Below, piece after piece: positions 8,640-17,675 of a stretch of 57,120 bases of DNA (positions are counted from its first letter, which is position 1; each line of letters begins with the position of its first letter). This DNA is from Bacteriovorax sp. (GTDB lineage: Bacteria; Bdellovibrionota; Bacteriovoracia; Bacteriovoracales; Bacteriovoracaceae). Position numbers and translations under genes: made by a program. The notes below the pieces were generated by a model, which made no database searches, was not told the origin of the DNA, and saw only the letters and a list, made by a program, of their open reading frames with translations. The DNA is taken from positions 1 to 57,120 of the forward strand of contig JACMPM010000069.1 of NCBI GenBank assembly GCA_014377485.1, given 5' to 3'.

Positions 8640-9776
8640 CTACGCCGCTTCACCTTTTAATTTTTGATTATACCATTCTGGTGCCAAGAAGTTGCTTTTT
8701 GGAAATGGCAGTTTGTTGACAATAATGTCTTCGAAGAATGATGGTACATAATTACACGCTATCATCTCCCCGATATATTTTCCAGTCTCTTGATCTTTAC
8801 CTGTTTGAACCCATCTAAAAATATCGCGACAAATATAATTTCCATGCTTATCAATGCCTAGAATTTCTGAAATATGAGATGTTCTTCTACCACCATCATG
8901 CATACGTGTTACCTGAACAACTAATTGCATGGCCGAAGCAACCATTTTTCGAACCGCATCAGGTGGAATTTTTGTATCTCCCATCAGGCATAATGTCTCG
9001 AGTCTGGTGCAGGCATCTACAGGATTGTTGGCATGAACTGTCCCCATACTGCCATCGTGTCCAGTGTTCATTACTTGAATTAAGTCCAGTGCTTCTTCAC
9101 CTCGAACCTCTCCAACAATAATTCGGTCTGGGCGAAGTCTCATCGCTGACATAACGAGATCGCGAATACTAACTTCACTAACACCACGTTCAGCATCGGC
9201 CTTTCTAGTAACAAAATTTACAACATGATCGGCCTTAACTTGAAGTTCAGCTGAATCTTCAATAATGAGAAGTCGTTGGGTTTTGGGAATACGTGAGCCC
9301 AATACGTTGAGCATGGTAGTCTTTCCCGAACCTGTTCCGCCGGAAACAATAATATTTTTGCTCAAGAAAATACAAATATCTAAAAATCGCGCGGCATCTT
9401 TAGACAAAGATCCAAATGTTATTAAGTCATTTAAAGTTAATTTTTCTTTTGAAAATTTTCTGATCGCTGCGGTAGTTCCATTTCTGGCCATTGGAGGAAG
9501 AACAACTGCAATACGAGATCCATCTGGCAAAAAACCATCAAGCCTCGGATTATCTTTATCAATTCTTCTTCCAATTGACTGAGCAATCGCTCTCATTGCT
9601 GCAAGAAGTGCTTCTTCATTATGAAATTGAGCATCTGTTTTAAAAACTAGACCTTTTTTTTCCACGAAAATTTCTTTGGGACCATTGATCATAATTTCAG
9701 AAACGCCGGGATCCTCAAGGAGATCCTTTATTGGATAAAGAAACTGTTCAATTGCGTCCTTAAAAACTGATGACAT
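8640..9776 (-). CDS. cpaF: CpaF/TadA-type secretion ATPase
   Basis: The 378-residue product is a hexameric ATPase of the type II/IV secretion superfamily, which powers Tad/Flp pili in other bacteria. Visible parts are the N-terminal domain, the Walker A SGGTGSGKTT, the Asp box LLIIEDSAELQ, the Walker B region RPDRIIVGEVRGEEALDLIQ and the His box GSMGTVHAN. It lacks the extra N-terminal region seen in many CpaF proteins. No pilin, TadB/C or secretin gene is nearby. The only neighbour in the unit is the cupredoxin-like gene, which ends two bases upstream, so the two are coupled. Bdellovibrionota often hold several dispersed tad-type genes. Confidence 0.88.
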   Translation of the reverse strand: MSSVFKDAIEQFLYPIKDLLEDPGVSEIMINGPKEIFVEKKGLVFKTDAQFHNEEALLAAMRAIAQSIGRRIDKDNPRLDGFLPDGSRIAVVLPPMARNGTTAAIRKFSKEKLTLNDLITFGSLSKDAARFLDICIFLSKNIIVSGGTGSGKTTMLNVLGSRIPKTQRLLIIEDSAELQVKADHVVNFVTRKADAERGVSEVSIRDLVMSAMRLRPDRIIVGEVRGEEALDLIQVMNTGHDGSMGTVHANNPVDACTRLETLCLMGDTKIPPDAVRKMVASAMQLVVQVTRMHDGGRRTSHISEILGIDKHGNYICRDIFRWVQTGKDQETGKYIGEMIACNYVPSFFEDIIVNKLPFPKSNFLAPEWYNQKLKGEAA

Positions 9777-9778
9777 AA

Positions 9779-10330
9779 TTATTCACTCTTATTATCTAGA
9801 TCCATTACATCGCCCATGCCTTTTAAATCTTTGAGTTCGTCTTTTTTAATCTGTACCCATTCAGTCGGAGTGTCTTTTGGTTTCCAGATTTTAACTGTAT
9901 CTGACGCTAAACCACGTCTCATACTCTCATCTCTATCGGATGGTTTCTCTAAAACCATAACTCTTCCGCTAAATGTATTATTTGGACAGTTGAATTGAAA
10001 AACGCCTACCTTATCAAAGAAAGTTTCGGCCTCAACAATTTTTGCCTGGGCCGCTGTTGCATAAACATTTTTGTCGGGGATATTAAAACAGGCCGAATCC
10101 ACGCCAACTGCAGTGACAAAAAAACGAACTTTTTCTCCCTTAAAAACTACAAGCCTATTTGGAAAAAAACCGTCTTTACTAACAATGATCGCTTGTTCAC
10201 GGTATGGAACATCCAGACTTCTTTCTTTATTATAACTATCTTCCACGGCGAATGCCTGTGTATAAAAGGAAGTTGAAAAAATTAGTAGAGAAAATATTTT
10301 TCGCGTTTTAATAAAAACCTCGCCAGACAA
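9779..10330 (-). CDS. Secreted cupredoxin-like protein
   Basis: A signal peptide (KTRKIFSLLIFSTSFYTQAFA) is followed by one cupredoxin-type beta sandwich at about residues 40-130: VSKDGFFPNRLVVFKGEKVR, then VDSACFNIPDKN and VGVFQFNCPNNTFSGRVMVL. The layout is that of cytochrome oxidase subunit II-like domains, but the usual His ligands are absent and only two Cys remain, so copper binding is doubtful. The in-frame start at 10330 is a TTG without a ribosome binding site. A GAGG followed by an ATT codon at 10312 would begin the protein exactly at the signal peptide and is an alternative. It lies two bases upstream of cpaF and is probably in the same transcript. Confidence 0.65.
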   Translation of the reverse strand: MSGEVFIKTRKIFSLLIFSTSFYTQAFAVEDSYNKERSLDVPYREQAIIVSKDGFFPNRLVVFKGEKVRFFVTAVGVDSACFNIPDKNVYATAAQAKIVEAETFFDKVGVFQFNCPNNTFSGRVMVLEKPSDRDESMRRGLASDTVKIWKPKDTPTEWVQIKKDELKDLKGMGDVMDLDNKSE

Positions 10331-10385: not shown

Positions 10386-10778
10386 TTATTTCGATATTGA
10401 GCACTTTTTTGAACTTTCAAATGCCGCTTTTGAAATGGGTGATTTATTAAGAGTCAATTTGACCTCTGGAACATCCTTATATGAAACTAAGTCTATTTTT
10501 AGATCCCACTTACCTAGATTTTCTCCTTTAGCATCCTTAAAGATAAATCCACCTGCTGAAAAATCACTCTCTTCTAAAATAATTTTATCCGCTCCATTGC
10601 TATATGAATTCACTAACAGAAGTTGTTCTTCAGGAATAAAATTAAAAACATATTTATTCCCATCAATGACTTCTTCGAACTGGCAGTTAAAATATTTTGA
10701 ATTGGGAAGACGTGATTCTCCGCCTTTAAATGAACTACAACCAACTAATAAAAACGCCAATATCCAATTTTTTTTCAT
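10386..10778 (-). CDS. Small lipoprotein of unknown function
   Basis: The 130-residue product has a lipoprotein signal (MKKNWILAFLLVGCSS) with the lipobox Cys at residue 14. Two later Cys could form a disulfide. The mature part is beta-rich and resembles small envelope proteins without a named fold. AAAGG before the ATG supports the start. It lies upstream of the cupredoxin/cpaF pair on the same strand, separated by 55 bases, and is divergent from the 10906 gene. Confidence 0.65.
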   Translation of the reverse strand: MKKNWILAFLLVGCSSFKGGESRLPNSKYFNCQFEEVIDGNKYVFNFIPEEQLLLVNSYSNGADKIILEESDFSAGGFIFKDAKGENLGKWDLKIDLVSYKDVPEVKLTLNKSPISKAAFESSKKCSISK

Positions 10779-10905: not shown

Positions 10906-12042
10906 TTGAAAGAGCGATATAAAATCTCAAAAATAATAGTAGTTATTGGGTTAGCCCTGCTAATTGGTCCATTTTCTACATGTTCTGCAGAAGGTTGCTT
11001 AGATTATTTTAAAAGAATCTTCTCCTACAAACCAAAAATTGAGACTGAATTCGATTTAAATAAACACCTAAATAATCGAGTCTTTATTGCAAATTATGCC
11101 AAGAAAAATGGCATACCTGTTTTCTTAAAACAAAACGATTCGGGAGAAGAAATTCCCGTCATTCTAGTCAATAGCAAATCATCAAAAAAATTAACTCAGT
11201 TTATAGATAATAGTTATGGTACCGAAGTTTCCCTCCAACCTAATTATGATAATGACCACGGACTTCTGCGTACAGGAAATACAATTATTGACGTCGACTC
11301 TCCTGGATATAGAGGTTACGGTGAAATTCACAAAACTGGATTAGCGTGGAAAGAATTTGAATCTTATATTTCAAGAAGAAAAAATGACTCCGGAGTTATC
11401 TTAGAAGTAACTTACCTGCTAACTCCTGAAGAAAAAAAAGCAATCGATTATTATCAGCGCATCAGGAGAGCAGCTATATTTCGAGTGAAGTTTGCCTTCA
11501 AAGGCGCTAAAACCGAAGATCACCCTTTTTTATTAAACACCGGTGGTGAACATTGTTTTATTTTCTGTAAAGCACAGGCCGTATCGAGCCATAATTCTGA
11601 ATTGCAATCAAAACTTAATTTTTTGGGATTAAAAAACATTGACGAGTTTTTTAAAAAACCAGAGGTTATTGCGAATATTGAAAAAATTAAAGAAATTGTT
11701 CTCAATACAAAACCAATGGACTTGAAACCTGAAATTCTAAAAGACGCGAAGATCATTAAGTCCTTCGATAATCTTTATCCTAAAGAAATTAAAACTGATG
11801 ATCAAAAATATGAATTCTTAAGATGGGTGATCTCCTACGAAGGATCAGACCGCTACACCCGAGTCTTAAAAGAATTAGGTGTATCAAGCGACTACGGAAT
11901 TAAAGATGCTAGTAATAAGCGAGTAAGTGCAATCTTGGTTTATGACGAAGCTGCAACTCCGGAAAATTTTAACAATGCCCAGTATTCAGCAAAAGGTGCT
12001 TTTACTCCTTGGCCGACTGGAATTCAAAAACCTGTGGAATAA
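10906..12042 (+). CDS. Secreted protein, possible permuted papain-like (LRAT/DUF4105-like) fold
   Basis: The 378-residue product starts at a TTG with AAAGGA seven bases before it, and has a signal peptide (hydrophobic residues about 8-22). I do not recognise a named family. H142 lies in GYRGYGEIHKTG. After a stretch reading VTYLLTPEEKKAIDYYQ, C217 lies in NTGGEHCFIFCKAQ. The order His, then a Lx-PEE helix, then a Cys at the start of a helix is what permuted papain-like families (NlpC/P60 relatives, LRAT, DUF4105) show, so a Cys peptidase or acyltransferase is a reasonable guess. The last 100 residues form a separate part. It is followed after 6 bases by the secreted CoA-transferase-like gene, and the two surely form one unit. 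Confidence 0.55.
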   Translation: MKERYKISKIIVVIGLALLIGPFSTCSAEGCLDYFKRIFSYKPKIETEFDLNKHLNNRVFIANYAKKNGIPVFLKQNDSGEEIPVILVNSKSSKKLTQFIDNSYGTEVSLQPNYDNDHGLLRTGNTIIDVDSPGYRGYGEIHKTGLAWKEFESYISRRKNDSGVILEVTYLLTPEEKKAIDYYQRIRRAAIFRVKFAFKGAKTEDHPFLLNTGGEHCFIFCKAQAVSSHNSELQSKLNFLGLKNIDEFFKKPEVIANIEKIKEIVLNTKPMDLKPEILKDAKIIKSFDNLYPKEIKTDDQKYEFLRWVISYEGSDRYTRVLKELGVSSDYGIKDASNKRVSAILVYDEAATPENFNNAQYSAKGAFTPWPTGIQKPVE

Positions 12043-12048
12043 TATTTT

Positions 12049-14337
12049 ATGATGAAGAAAACGTTACAAACATTTTCATTAATCTTTCTCTTAACGTTCT
12101 CTGCAATGGCCAACGACATTTGCGTGAACCTGGTAGAGAAATTAATTGCCAAGCAAAATGTTCATGGTTATGCCGAATCCGCACATCTTCTGACAAAATT
12201 AAAAAAGTTTGCTGATGACAACAAACTCCTTAACCAAGTTCTTGAAGTTGGACCAGGAGAAAGAAGAGTTGAAAGACTTTTTGTCGCCATCGATATGAAT
12301 GATGAAGAGATGGTTCAAAAATACTTAAAAGCTTTTAACTTAGAAGATAGTGAAAATCCTGTTTTGGCACTAGAATTTGGTTTTGAAGTTCAAAGCCAGT
12401 ATGTCACTGGAGTCCTTAGAACTTCACCAGATCCAACTGCTCCCATTTATAGATGGGGAAAAAAAGATTTACCAAGAAATCAATGGGCGCAAGACTGGAT
12501 GATAAAGGGCGGATTCAACCGCTACCCTGAAAGACTAAACAATCCAATTTGGGGATACTCTCATATTCTTGAGATCGATAAATCAGAGGCAAAAAATGTT
12601 AAACACTTTTTAGAAAATCCTCTCGAGAGAGGACCATGTAAATCTGATAACTGCGTTGCTTGGACTTCCAGTATTGAATTAGGTCTCACCAAACCCGATT
12701 CAACTACTGAAGAACGAAAATATCTCTTCAATGAACTTGGAGTCTCTAGGGCATCTGCACATTATGAAATCGGTCGCAGACTTATGCATGCCACCGACCA
12801 AAGACACTCGGGGGTTATAGTATTTGTAAACGGTGAAAAAGGGCGCGAAGCTTTTGCTAAAAATTTAAGAAATTTTTTACCTCCGGAACCACAAATCCCG
12901 TATACCAATATCATTAAGGGATTAGGCCATGACCCAAAAGGTGAATTAATGGCAGCGGTCGGACAAATTCCAGATGGTTCAAAAATTTTCTTTCCTATTG
13001 CTGCAGGTGCAAGCCCAGAGGCCATGAGTGCGATTATACAGAGGGCCGCCGAAGCTAAAAAAGGATTTGATATTTCTATTTTAGTTAATGGAATTAATGA
13101 ATCAACTTTGAGAAAAGGAGCAGAACTTCCCGGAGGTAAAATTCGTTTTAATTCACTGTTCGTTGGAAGTAGCATGCGTAAACTTCATAGCGAAGGAAAA
13201 ATAAATTATATTCCAGGTTATTTAAGTGATTTCCCTCGTTACATGCGCGACCCAAAAATGAAAGACTTTCAATACGATGTTATTGTGGTGAGAGTCAGTC
13301 CACCTAATGAAGAAGGCTTTCATTCTTTTGGCCCCAATTACGATATGATACATACTATTTTGGAAGCACACCCAAATATTAAAATTATAGCCGAAGTAAA
13401 TCCGAATATACCATTCACTGCTGGAGAAAATAAAATACACTCCAGTAAGATAACAGCAATGTTTAAAAGCACAGCCAAGCTTGCAGGCCCCCCAGTTGTT
13501 CCATTTACTGATGTCGAAAAAAATATAGGTAAATATTTAGGGGAATTAATTGAAAATGATTCAACTCTTCAAGTTGGTATTGGAAATATTTTTGGTGGAC
13601 TGGCAGATGGTTTACAAAGCGCCAATAGAACTAATTTAAAAATTTCAACAGAAATGTTTGGTGATGGTATGAAAGAGATCATGGAAAGAGGAATTGCAAC
13701 AAAAGCTGAAACTGGCTTTGCTTATGGATCAGAAGATCTTTATAAATGGCTCAATAAAAACAAAATTGTTCAATTTGTTTCAACAGAAAAAGTAAACGAT
13801 CCATCTCTCATCCAAAACACGGAGAAATTTCACGCAGTCAATACAGCACTTCAAGTTGATCTCAGGGGTTCTGCCAATGCTGAAATGGGGCCAGAAGGAC
13901 GCCTGAGCAGTCCTGGTGGACAAGTTGAATTTATGTCAGCAGCTTCAAGATCTAACGGTGGAAAATCCATCATTGCTATTAGATCAACAGCTAAAAACGG
14001 TGAATTCTCTACCATTGGACTTAATCTCTATGCAGGCAATGTTACAACTCCGGCGGAAAGTGTCCACTATGTAGTAACCGAATACGGAATAGCAATGCTC
14101 AAAGGAAAATCTGAATCAGAAAGAGCAATCTCCTTAATTAATATTGCACATCCTAAATTTCGAGCAGGATTAAGAGATAAGGCCGTTGAAGCAAATGTTC
14201 TTTCATCAGAAGATGCTGCACAGATAATTATAGATGTACCTGTCGTTGCCAATGTGAAAATCGAAAACTATCGCCACATTGCAAGTGAGAGTTCAATTTG
14301 GATGAAAATTTGGACCAAAATTGTAGAAATGTTTTAA
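12049..14337 (+). CDS. Secreted two-part protein: His...Cys N-domain plus acetyl-CoA hydrolase/transferase domain
   Basis: The 762-residue product starts with a clear signal peptide (KKTLQTFSLIFLLTFSAMAND). The region 22-290 has H172 (GYSHILEI) and C202 (SDNCVAW), an order seen in permuted papain-like enzymes. From about residue 300 to 745 it is a complete acetyl-CoA hydrolase/transferase module: YIPGYLSDFP, VVRVSPPNEEGFHSFG, TLQVGIGNIFGGLADGL, STEMFGDGMKEIMERG, QVDLRGSANAE, NGGKSIIAIRST and VHYVVTEYGIAMLKGKSESE. E535 in the STEMFGDG motif fits the catalytic Glu of 4-hydroxybutyrate CoA-transferase. Family members are cytoplasmic; here the module carries an export signal, although CoA is not expected in the periplasm. 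The domain may act on another thioester or only bind. It follows the 10906 gene by 6 bases. Confidence 0.75.
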   Translation: MMKKTLQTFSLIFLLTFSAMANDICVNLVEKLIAKQNVHGYAESAHLLTKLKKFADDNKLLNQVLEVGPGERRVERLFVAIDMNDEEMVQKYLKAFNLEDSENPVLALEFGFEVQSQYVTGVLRTSPDPTAPIYRWGKKDLPRNQWAQDWMIKGGFNRYPERLNNPIWGYSHILEIDKSEAKNVKHFLENPLERGPCKSDNCVAWTSSIELGLTKPDSTTEERKYLFNELGVSRASAHYEIGRRLMHATDQRHSGVIVFVNGEKGREAFAKNLRNFLPPEPQIPYTNIIKGLGHDPKGELMAAVGQIPDGSKIFFPIAAGASPEAMSAIIQRAAEAKKGFDISILVNGINESTLRKGAELPGGKIRFNSLFVGSSMRKLHSEGKINYIPGYLSDFPRYMRDPKMKDFQYDVIVVRVSPPNEEGFHSFGPNYDMIHTILEAHPNIKIIAEVNPNIPFTAGENKIHSSKITAMFKSTAKLAGPPVVPFTDVEKNIGKYLGELIENDSTLQVGIGNIFGGLADGLQSANRTNLKISTEMFGDGMKEIMERGIATKAETGFAYGSEDLYKWLNKNKIVQFVSTEKVNDPSLIQNTEKFHAVNTALQVDLRGSANAEMGPEGRLSSPGGQVEFMSAASRSNGGKSIIAIRSTAKNGEFSTIGLNLYAGNVTTPAESVHYVVTEYGIAMLKGKSESERAISLINIAHPKFRAGLRDKAVEANVLSSEDAAQIIIDVPVVANVKIENYRHIASESSIWMKIWTKIVEMF

Positions 14338-14346
14338 TTATACAAA

Positions 14347-14961
14347 CTAAATAGTAAGATCGTCAGCGTCTTTGCCTACAGGACGGCGCTGATCTACTGG
14401 TTTAATTGACTTCGTTTTTGGTGGGGCTTTGGCCGTTTTTAATTTTTTAAATTTTATCAGCAACTCTCCCGACTTATTTTCAAACTCTGGATTACTCTGA
14501 TCAACCTCTTGGGGAATGGCAAAAGTTCTTTCAAAATGAACTTTAGTAGAACGTCTAGATTTAGGATTTTTTATATCGACTGATTCAACATCACCCTTTA
14601 ATTTTATTTGTCCTTTTTCAATTTTTATATCGAGAGGTTTGTTTTTAATCTGTTTGATTTTAAGAACAAATATTTGATGTGTCGGAGTCTCACGCCAATC
14701 GTATTCACCAATCACTTCACTGGCATCACTTTCTGCGCCTGAACTAAAATTCTCTTTATCCATTTTTTTGATTAAGTCTTCAAATTTTTTATCAAAATTT
14801 TCAAAAGCAGAATCATTAAGAAGCGATTTGATCATCTCCTCCCGGGCCTTCATTATTTCATTTATCTGAAGTTGAACTTCTTGATTCGATTGGGCGTATG
14901 AACTAAAACTACTGGCCATGATTATAATAGCAAATATAAAGGAAAATCTTTTTTTATTCAT
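14347..14961 (-). CDS. Exported Hsp20/alpha-crystallin-like small heat shock protein
   Basis: The 204-residue product has a signal peptide (FSFIFAIIIMASSFSSYA), a helical charged segment (about 25-85) and a compact alpha-crystallin-like beta domain (about 90-175). The latter shows IKIEKGQIKLKGDV, VHFERTFAIPQEVD and GELLIKFKK, in the usual order with the FxRxFxLP hallmark. A Lys/Pro-rich tail follows. Small heat shock proteins hold unfolding proteins, normally in the cytoplasm; this one is predicted periplasmic. It converges with the CoA-transferase-like gene nine bases away. Confidence 0.7.
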   Translation of the reverse strand: MNKKRFSFIFAIIIMASSFSSYAQSNQEVQLQINEIMKAREEMIKSLLNDSAFENFDKKFEDLIKKMDKENFSSGAESDASEVIGEYDWRETPTHQIFVLKIKQIKNKPLDIKIEKGQIKLKGDVESVDIKNPKSRRSTKVHFERTFAIPQEVDQSNPEFENKSGELLIKFKKLKTAKAPPKTKSIKPVDQRRPVGKDADDLTI

Positions 14962-16910: not shown

Positions 16911-17675
16911 TTAAAGAACAGTTTTTAAAAGATCTGATCTTTTTTTGCTTTTCGGTAAAGATTTTTCCCAATCTCCGTAGAGAGGATTGGGTAGTACTAT
17001 AAACTTTTCACCAAAATCTTGCTGATGAGAATCGACCAACGCACGGCGCTCATCACTAGTCTTACTATCCCAATCCTTATGAAAGTCCCCTAAATTATCA
17101 CCGAAGAACATTACGACATCATATTTTTTTAAAACTTCAACTCGTCGAACCTCTTTACTCCAATCATTGCTTAAAAAATAAAGATTTTCTGGTTTTGCGG
17201 GAATCCCCAAACGCTTAAAATTTTCTAAAGTGTCTTCTTTTTGAGTTGAGAGACGATTTGAAATATAAATCACTTCAACTTGTCTTGAGACAGCATATTT
17301 AATGAACTCTTTTGCCCCAGGAATTGCTTCAGAGGCCCGCTGTTTCACCCATCGATTAAAACTATCTTGATCCCAGTCGAGATGATTTTTAATTTCAAAG
17401 GCCCCGCCAAAAGAATTATCTAAAACCGTTTCATCAATATCAAAAACCAACGCTCGTTTTCTATTATGCTTGTCTTCTAAGTCTCGATCGAGTCTTAAGC
17501 GGGCCAGATTATAAGCTTGGTAGCAAAGAGCTCGGTACTCTCCACTCGTTTGGAACCATAAGTAAGCCCCTACTTGGTACTCACGGGTATAAGGTTCTCT
17601 TTGGTTTACAGAATTTCCCGAGCAAGAAGACAAGACTAAGATTGCACAAAAAAAGAATGCATTAATTGATTTCAT
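16911..17675 (-). CDS. HAD-superfamily acid phosphatase lipoprotein, e(P4) type
   Basis: The 254-residue product has a lipobox (LVLSSCSG) and the layout of class C acid phosphatases such as Haemophilus lipoprotein e(P4), which dephosphorylates nucleotides at the outer membrane. The four key Asp are visible: FDIDETVLDN carries the nucleophile pair, and FFGDNLGDFHKDW carries the metal-binding pair. The N-terminal helix AYLWFQTSGEYRALCYQAYN matches the family WxQxSxEyxAl motif. It lies 84 bases upstream of the FKBP gene and 30 bases downstream of rnhA on the same strand. A likely role is nucleotide salvage. Confidence 0.88.
   Translation of the reverse strand: MKSINAFFFCAILVLSSCSGNSVNQREPYTREYQVGAYLWFQTSGEYRALCYQAYNLARLRLDRDLEDKHNRKRALVFDIDETVLDNSFGGAFEIKNHLDWDQDSFNRWVKQRASEAIPGAKEFIKYAVSRQVEVIYISNRLSTQKEDTLENFKRLGIPAKPENLYFLSNDWSKEVRRVEVLKKYDVVMFFGDNLGDFHKDWDSKTSDERRALVDSHQQDFGEKFIVLPNPLYGDWEKSLPKSKKRSDLLKTVL

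Follow-up and report, generated by a model that had tools for sequence, protein, structure and literature searches.

The closest described relatives of the protein reported here, designated B, are the 4-hydroxybutyrate and butyryl CoA-transferases (PF02550 plus PF13336; PDB accession codes 2OAS, 3GK7 and, for RipA, 3QLI), which provide the best match over its entire transferase module (35-40% identity) and share with it the catalytic Glu, the GIG loop, and the GGQ and TEYG motifs. Unlike these enzymes, B possesses a signal peptide, an additional N-terminal domain (N-domain) and a module devoid of cysteines; furthermore, its HTE motif has become STE, a nine-residue loop is deleted, and the Arg following GGQ-(D/E)F is lost. 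The AarC enzyme resembles B in the nucleophile, in the internal and external oxyanion residues, the thiolate loop, the Lys for the CoA 3'-phosphate and Glu435, with Ile in B for Val270 of AarC; it differs from B by having neither leader nor N-domain and by keeping the family Arg. The cytoplasmic paralogue of the organism itself (G000:C107:107664-108893; 422 amino acids) carries the same module with 37% identity to B and, in contrast to B, is leader-less, lacks the N-domain, and has retained both the HTEM motif and the loop. No description of an exported CoA-transferase was found in the literature that we searched.

Gene B of Bacteriovorax sp. lies on contig JACMPM010000069.1, within the 57,120-nucleotide stretch of DNA that was analysed as a whole (the window; Table 1). 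According to the open reading frame list of the window it consists of 762 codons and starts with ATG, and its coordinates are exactly those given in a preliminary description, which had recognized that a signal peptide and an additional N-terminal domain precede a full CoA-transferase module. This assignment finds support in Pfam, in solved relatives, in the loss of cysteines from the module, and in the occurrence of the arrangement in ten genomes. Within the C-terminal two thirds of the protein, residues 560-712 match PF13336 (2.8e-49; 167.4 bits against a curated gathering cut-off of 23.7), and residues 365-468 match PF02550 (4.1e-9; 37.2 bits against a cut-off of 24). The best solved relatives of the module are 4-hydroxybutyrate CoA-transferases (2oas, 7.5e-61; 9vag, matching from residue 303 onwards), and the score for TIGR03948, the model of butyryl-CoA:acetate CoA-transferase, is 177.1 bits and thus below the equivalog cut-off of 674.8. 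Judged by its sequence and its catalytic residues, B is a member of the acetyl-CoA hydrolase/transferase family of class I CoA-transferases that has lost a family-wide Arg, and the subgroup motifs place it outside the 4-hydroxybutyrate CoA-transferases. Comparison of gene B with its orthologues yields dN values of 0.08-0.23 for both the N-domain and the transferase, with dS near or beyond saturation; these domains are under strong purifying selection, and divergence is faster in the leader and in the C-terminal tail.

Table 1. Features of the A-B locus, in coordinates of the window
Feature	Position	Strand	Basis or remark
Gene C, small lipoprotein-like protein, divergent from A	10386..10778	-	Syntenic in the genus only; weakly conserved
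Gene A, 378-aa exported protein without known family	10906..12042	+	Precedes B by 6 bases
Gene B, exported CoA-transferase-like protein, 762 aa	12049..14337	+	ORF, Pfam, orthologues in 10 genomes
B signal peptide, residues 1-21	12049..12111	+	Sequence; hydrophobic leader kept in orthologues
B N-domain, about residues 22-300 (~280 aa), no known family	12112..12948	+	Conserved in ten genomes
B CoA-transferase module, residues 303-715, cysteine-free	12955..14193	+	Pfam, solved relatives, alignment
Codon of E535, aligned with AarC catalytic Glu294	13651..13653	+	Invariant among exported (8) and cytoplasmic (22) sequences

The N-domain is found in the genome of the window and in five of the 13 other genomes of the genus, each time fused to the transferase. 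A profile built from it detects four more genomes, distributed over two additional families of the phylum; in these, too, the transferase is present, and a leader is seen wherever the start of the gene is assembled. The sensitive profile searches covered 368 genomes, all of this phylum, and a profile of the exported transferase retrieves the same ten among them; the exported proteins score between 455 and 918 bits, and all other CoA-transferases at most 289. When eight exported proteins were placed in a tree with 22 cytoplasmic sequences, they formed one clade (support 100/100) on a stem of 2.14 changes per column. The exported class is, by these comparisons, discrete and of single origin; its nearest cytoplasmic lineage is unsafe, since the tree program warns of long branches meeting. 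The N-domain is absent from all cytoplasmic homologues compared. A viral or plasmid origin was considered and rejected, as the N-domain has no match in IMG/VR, PLSDB or INPHARED and gene A none in IMG/VR. A scan of genome contigs by exact peptide patterns, which reaches close relatives only, returned L009 as its sole match, the same contig as G001. A weak N-domain match in G021 (E 7.9e-4) was disregarded, as the frame in which it falls is unrelated. The copy of B in G242 (L074:5345-7557) is split into two frames (ORFs of 450 and 251 amino acids), through either an assembly error or a real disruption. The exported CoA-transferase-like protein B is real, conserved and unusual.

Wherever B occurs (10 of 10 genomes), homologues of gene A are found with it in one small cluster. 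A precedes B in the genus, B precedes A in G242, G244 and G246, the two genes are divergent with one gene between them in G243, and A is interrupted by the end of the contig in G013. In G282, a distant A homologue with a leader is present (L073:7135-8439; E 7e-22), and an exported CoA-transferase was not found at the threshold used. Large ORFs with leader-like starts and without a Pfam match adjoin A homologues at L073:4222-7002 (926 amino acids) and L074:8627-11311 (894 amino acids). Like B, the A protein carries a leader, and the leaders are kept in the relatives of both. A has no match in Pfam or the PDB; its invariant residues include Asp117-His118, Arg122 and Cys217-Phe218. A was considered as a possible permuted papain-like (NlpC/LRAT-type) cysteine enzyme, in which a conserved catalytic His would precede a conserved Cys: its Asp-His and Cys-Phe pairs are invariant, but two relatives have just two cysteines, which may form a disulfide.

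Searches with the N-domain yielded nothing of note in Pfam, the PDB or PHROGs. AlphaFold, supplied with an alignment of two sequences (window and L009), returned mean pLDDT values of 33 for mature B and 41 for the N-domain alone, and neither of these models was taken into fold searches. A reading of the N-domain as a permuted papain-like (NlpC/LRAT-type) cysteine enzyme was rejected: L052 has Asn in place of the candidate His (WGYSH), and Pfam and PDB matches were not obtained. In A and the N-domain alike, the leader is immediately followed by a short motif that is similar in the two and contains an invariant Cys, and their profiles give two collinear weak matches, one at either end, with a chain score of 58 compared with 21 for the reversed profile. 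Homology between A and the N-domain is suggestive only, since the score of the real chain was reached by 5 of 150 column shuffles.

Gene C is an uncertain member of the A-B cluster. Downstream of B, a Hsp20/alpha-crystallin-like protein with a signal-peptide-like leader is encoded (14347-14961, minus strand; PF00011, 3.7e-8), which may be a small heat-shock protein that is exported. A HAD subfamily IIIB acid phosphatase with a lipoprotein-like leader is encoded farther on (16911-17675, minus strand; PF03767, 4.6e-43). Upstream lies the gene for an exported cupredoxin-like protein (9779-10330, minus strand) with a Pfam score under the cut-off, which overlaps or abuts a gene for a CpaF/TadA-like ATPase (8640-9776).

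Tentatively, we regard B as a catalytically competent class I CoA-transferase that is exported by the Sec system and works with A on extracytoplasmic acyl thioesters, with acyl-CoA from prey as their likeliest source. The family match, the kept catalytic residues, the leaders, the absence of cysteines, the purifying selection, the linkage of A and B, and the single origin of the class all speak for this reading. For the comparison of active-site residues, the AarC sequence was taken from a printed alignment, in which E294, N347, G388, K408 and V270 carry the right letters at the published numbers (PMC4876117). In AarC, Gly388 and Asn347 provide the external and internal oxyanion holes, respectively, and Lys408 stabilizes the 3'-phosphate of CoA (PMC4876117). 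AarC E294, N347, G388, K408 and E435 align with E535, N583, G624, K649 and E678 of B, which all eight exported sequences keep. The counterpart of V270 is I511, and all six mapped positions are uniform across the exported proteins. For the AarC carboxylate-side residues S71, T94 and R228, the alignment to B is not reliable. The candidate catalytic Glu proposed in the preliminary description is the residue that aligns with the AarC nucleophile, and the CoA-binding residues that it wished to see compared include a 3'-phosphate Lys retained in every exported protein; among the cytoplasmic sequences a Lys occupies this position in just 11 of 22.

Around this core, the exported class shares changes that do not occur in the cytoplasmic set. 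Position 533 holds Ser, or Tyr in one sequence, instead of His (HTE to STE or YTE in 8/8), and the HTE(M/L) motif of the subgroup is not found. The nine-residue loop with its invariant Lys, situated before the (F)xxG motif, is deleted in 8/8. D627 is replaced by Glu and R669 by Ala, Ser or His. R630, the family Arg after GGQ-(D/E)F or GG-x-x-DF, is Ser or Thr in 8/8 and remains Arg in 21 of 22 cytoplasmic sequences, in AarC and in L057; an Arg after the GG motif is present in an AarC-like protein of the phylum. The earlier statement that B bears most family motifs was fair and at the same time incomplete, as 47 of the 83 columns conserved among cytoplasmic homologues are kept across all exported sequences. 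RipA uses the region of the deleted loop for tetramer contacts (PMC3180442), and the assembly of B may consequently differ. With H533, the loop and R630 lost, CoA binding in the exported class may be altered, a point against the reading given above, and the losses particular to this class would allow for a change of substrate. The same glutamate chemistry might be directed at a non-CoA acyl thioester or activated acyl group, pantetheine- or protein-bound for example, that A or the N-domain presents. The joint change of H533, the loop, R630 and R669 around a kept catalytic core and the long stem of the exported clade would suit such a substrate; we nevertheless consider it unlikely, as the Lys for the CoA 3'-phosphate is universal in the exported class and present in only half of the cytoplasmic sequences.

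The loss of family-wide residues, together with an N-domain and a partner that belong to no known family, could also indicate a reused fold, in which a non-catalytic binding or structural protein is exported and the CoA-transferase fold serves only as a carrier for the N-domain or A. A fold without catalysis would have no need of the nucleophile, both oxyanion residues, the GIG loop, and the GGQ and TEYG motifs, all of which persist in every exported sequence from three families; the retention of the nucleophile, the oxyanion residues and the 3'-phosphate Lys favours real thioester chemistry, and we regard the reused fold as decidedly improbable.

The N-terminus of B, MMKKTLQTFSLIFLLTFSAMA-ND, displays by eye the n-, h- and c-regions of a Sec/SPase I signal, with a basic n-region, a hydrophobic core, an AxA-like end and conservation in orthologues. 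A hydrophobic, diverged, AxA-like leader is found in each relative with an assembled start, and the best ten-residue Kyte-Doolittle mean near the start is 2.4-2.8 in exported proteins versus 0.1-1.7 in cytoplasmic homologues. The only cysteines of B (C25, C197, C202) are invariant and lie within the N-domain; the module contains none in the eight exported sequences counted, three to eight in each of the 22 cytoplasmic homologues, and three in the AarC segment used. Loss of cysteines fits an oxidizing compartment and lends the predicted export support additional to that of the leader. A start codon further in, which according to the preliminary description would remove the hydrophobic segment, is unlikely, since all orthologues have a leader and conservation begins directly after it with C25. 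That B is a cytoplasmic enzyme whose hydrophobic N-terminus is no export signal, as the location of the remaining family members might suggest, is highly improbable given a leader that stays hydrophobic in three families despite sequence divergence, a cysteine-free module, and a leader on A as well.

In the exported CoA-transferase that we favour, E535 would attack an acyl thioester to form an acyl-glutamyl anhydride and then a glutamyl-CoA thioester, which would hand CoA, the presumed thiol, to another carboxylate or to water. B would leave the cytoplasm by the Sec route and may operate outside it jointly with A, the exported protein encoded beside it; A and the N-domain may serve in substrate binding or preparation, or in directing the enzyme to its target. 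Bdellovibrionota are known for preying on other bacteria, and the phylum is the basis for assuming that this genus preys as well. From this lifestyle, the likeliest source of thioester would be acyl-CoA that escapes from the prey into the shared periplasm or bdelloplast. It counts against this reading that free acyl-CoA is not known to occur outside cells. Acyl groups cross membranes by dedicated proteins (PMC9558356). Salvage of prey CoA by pantothenate auxotrophs was rejected, as panB and panC are present in 14 of 14 genomes of the genus, with and without B. The preliminary description had placed the module correctly, after a leader and an additional domain, and had left open whether it acts on prey CoA or another thioester or is a reused fold; it had missed the constant partner A and the class-specific changes (HTE to STE, the nine-residue loop, the Arg).

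It is possible, although this should be read with reserve, that A and B form a two-protein exported system whose CoA-transferase chemistry, outside the cytoplasm, is directed at acyl thioesters from a different organism, the partner being a new family of exported domains. The locus points to exported chemistry in the Bdellovibrionota for which the literature searched contained no description. CoA esters are treated as intracellular metabolites, and this assumption becomes directly testable with a conserved exported CoA-transferase whose module is free of cysteines and keeps its catalytic core. If the proposal is true, usable acyl-CoA or an unrecognized thioester would be present in the space shared by predator and prey.
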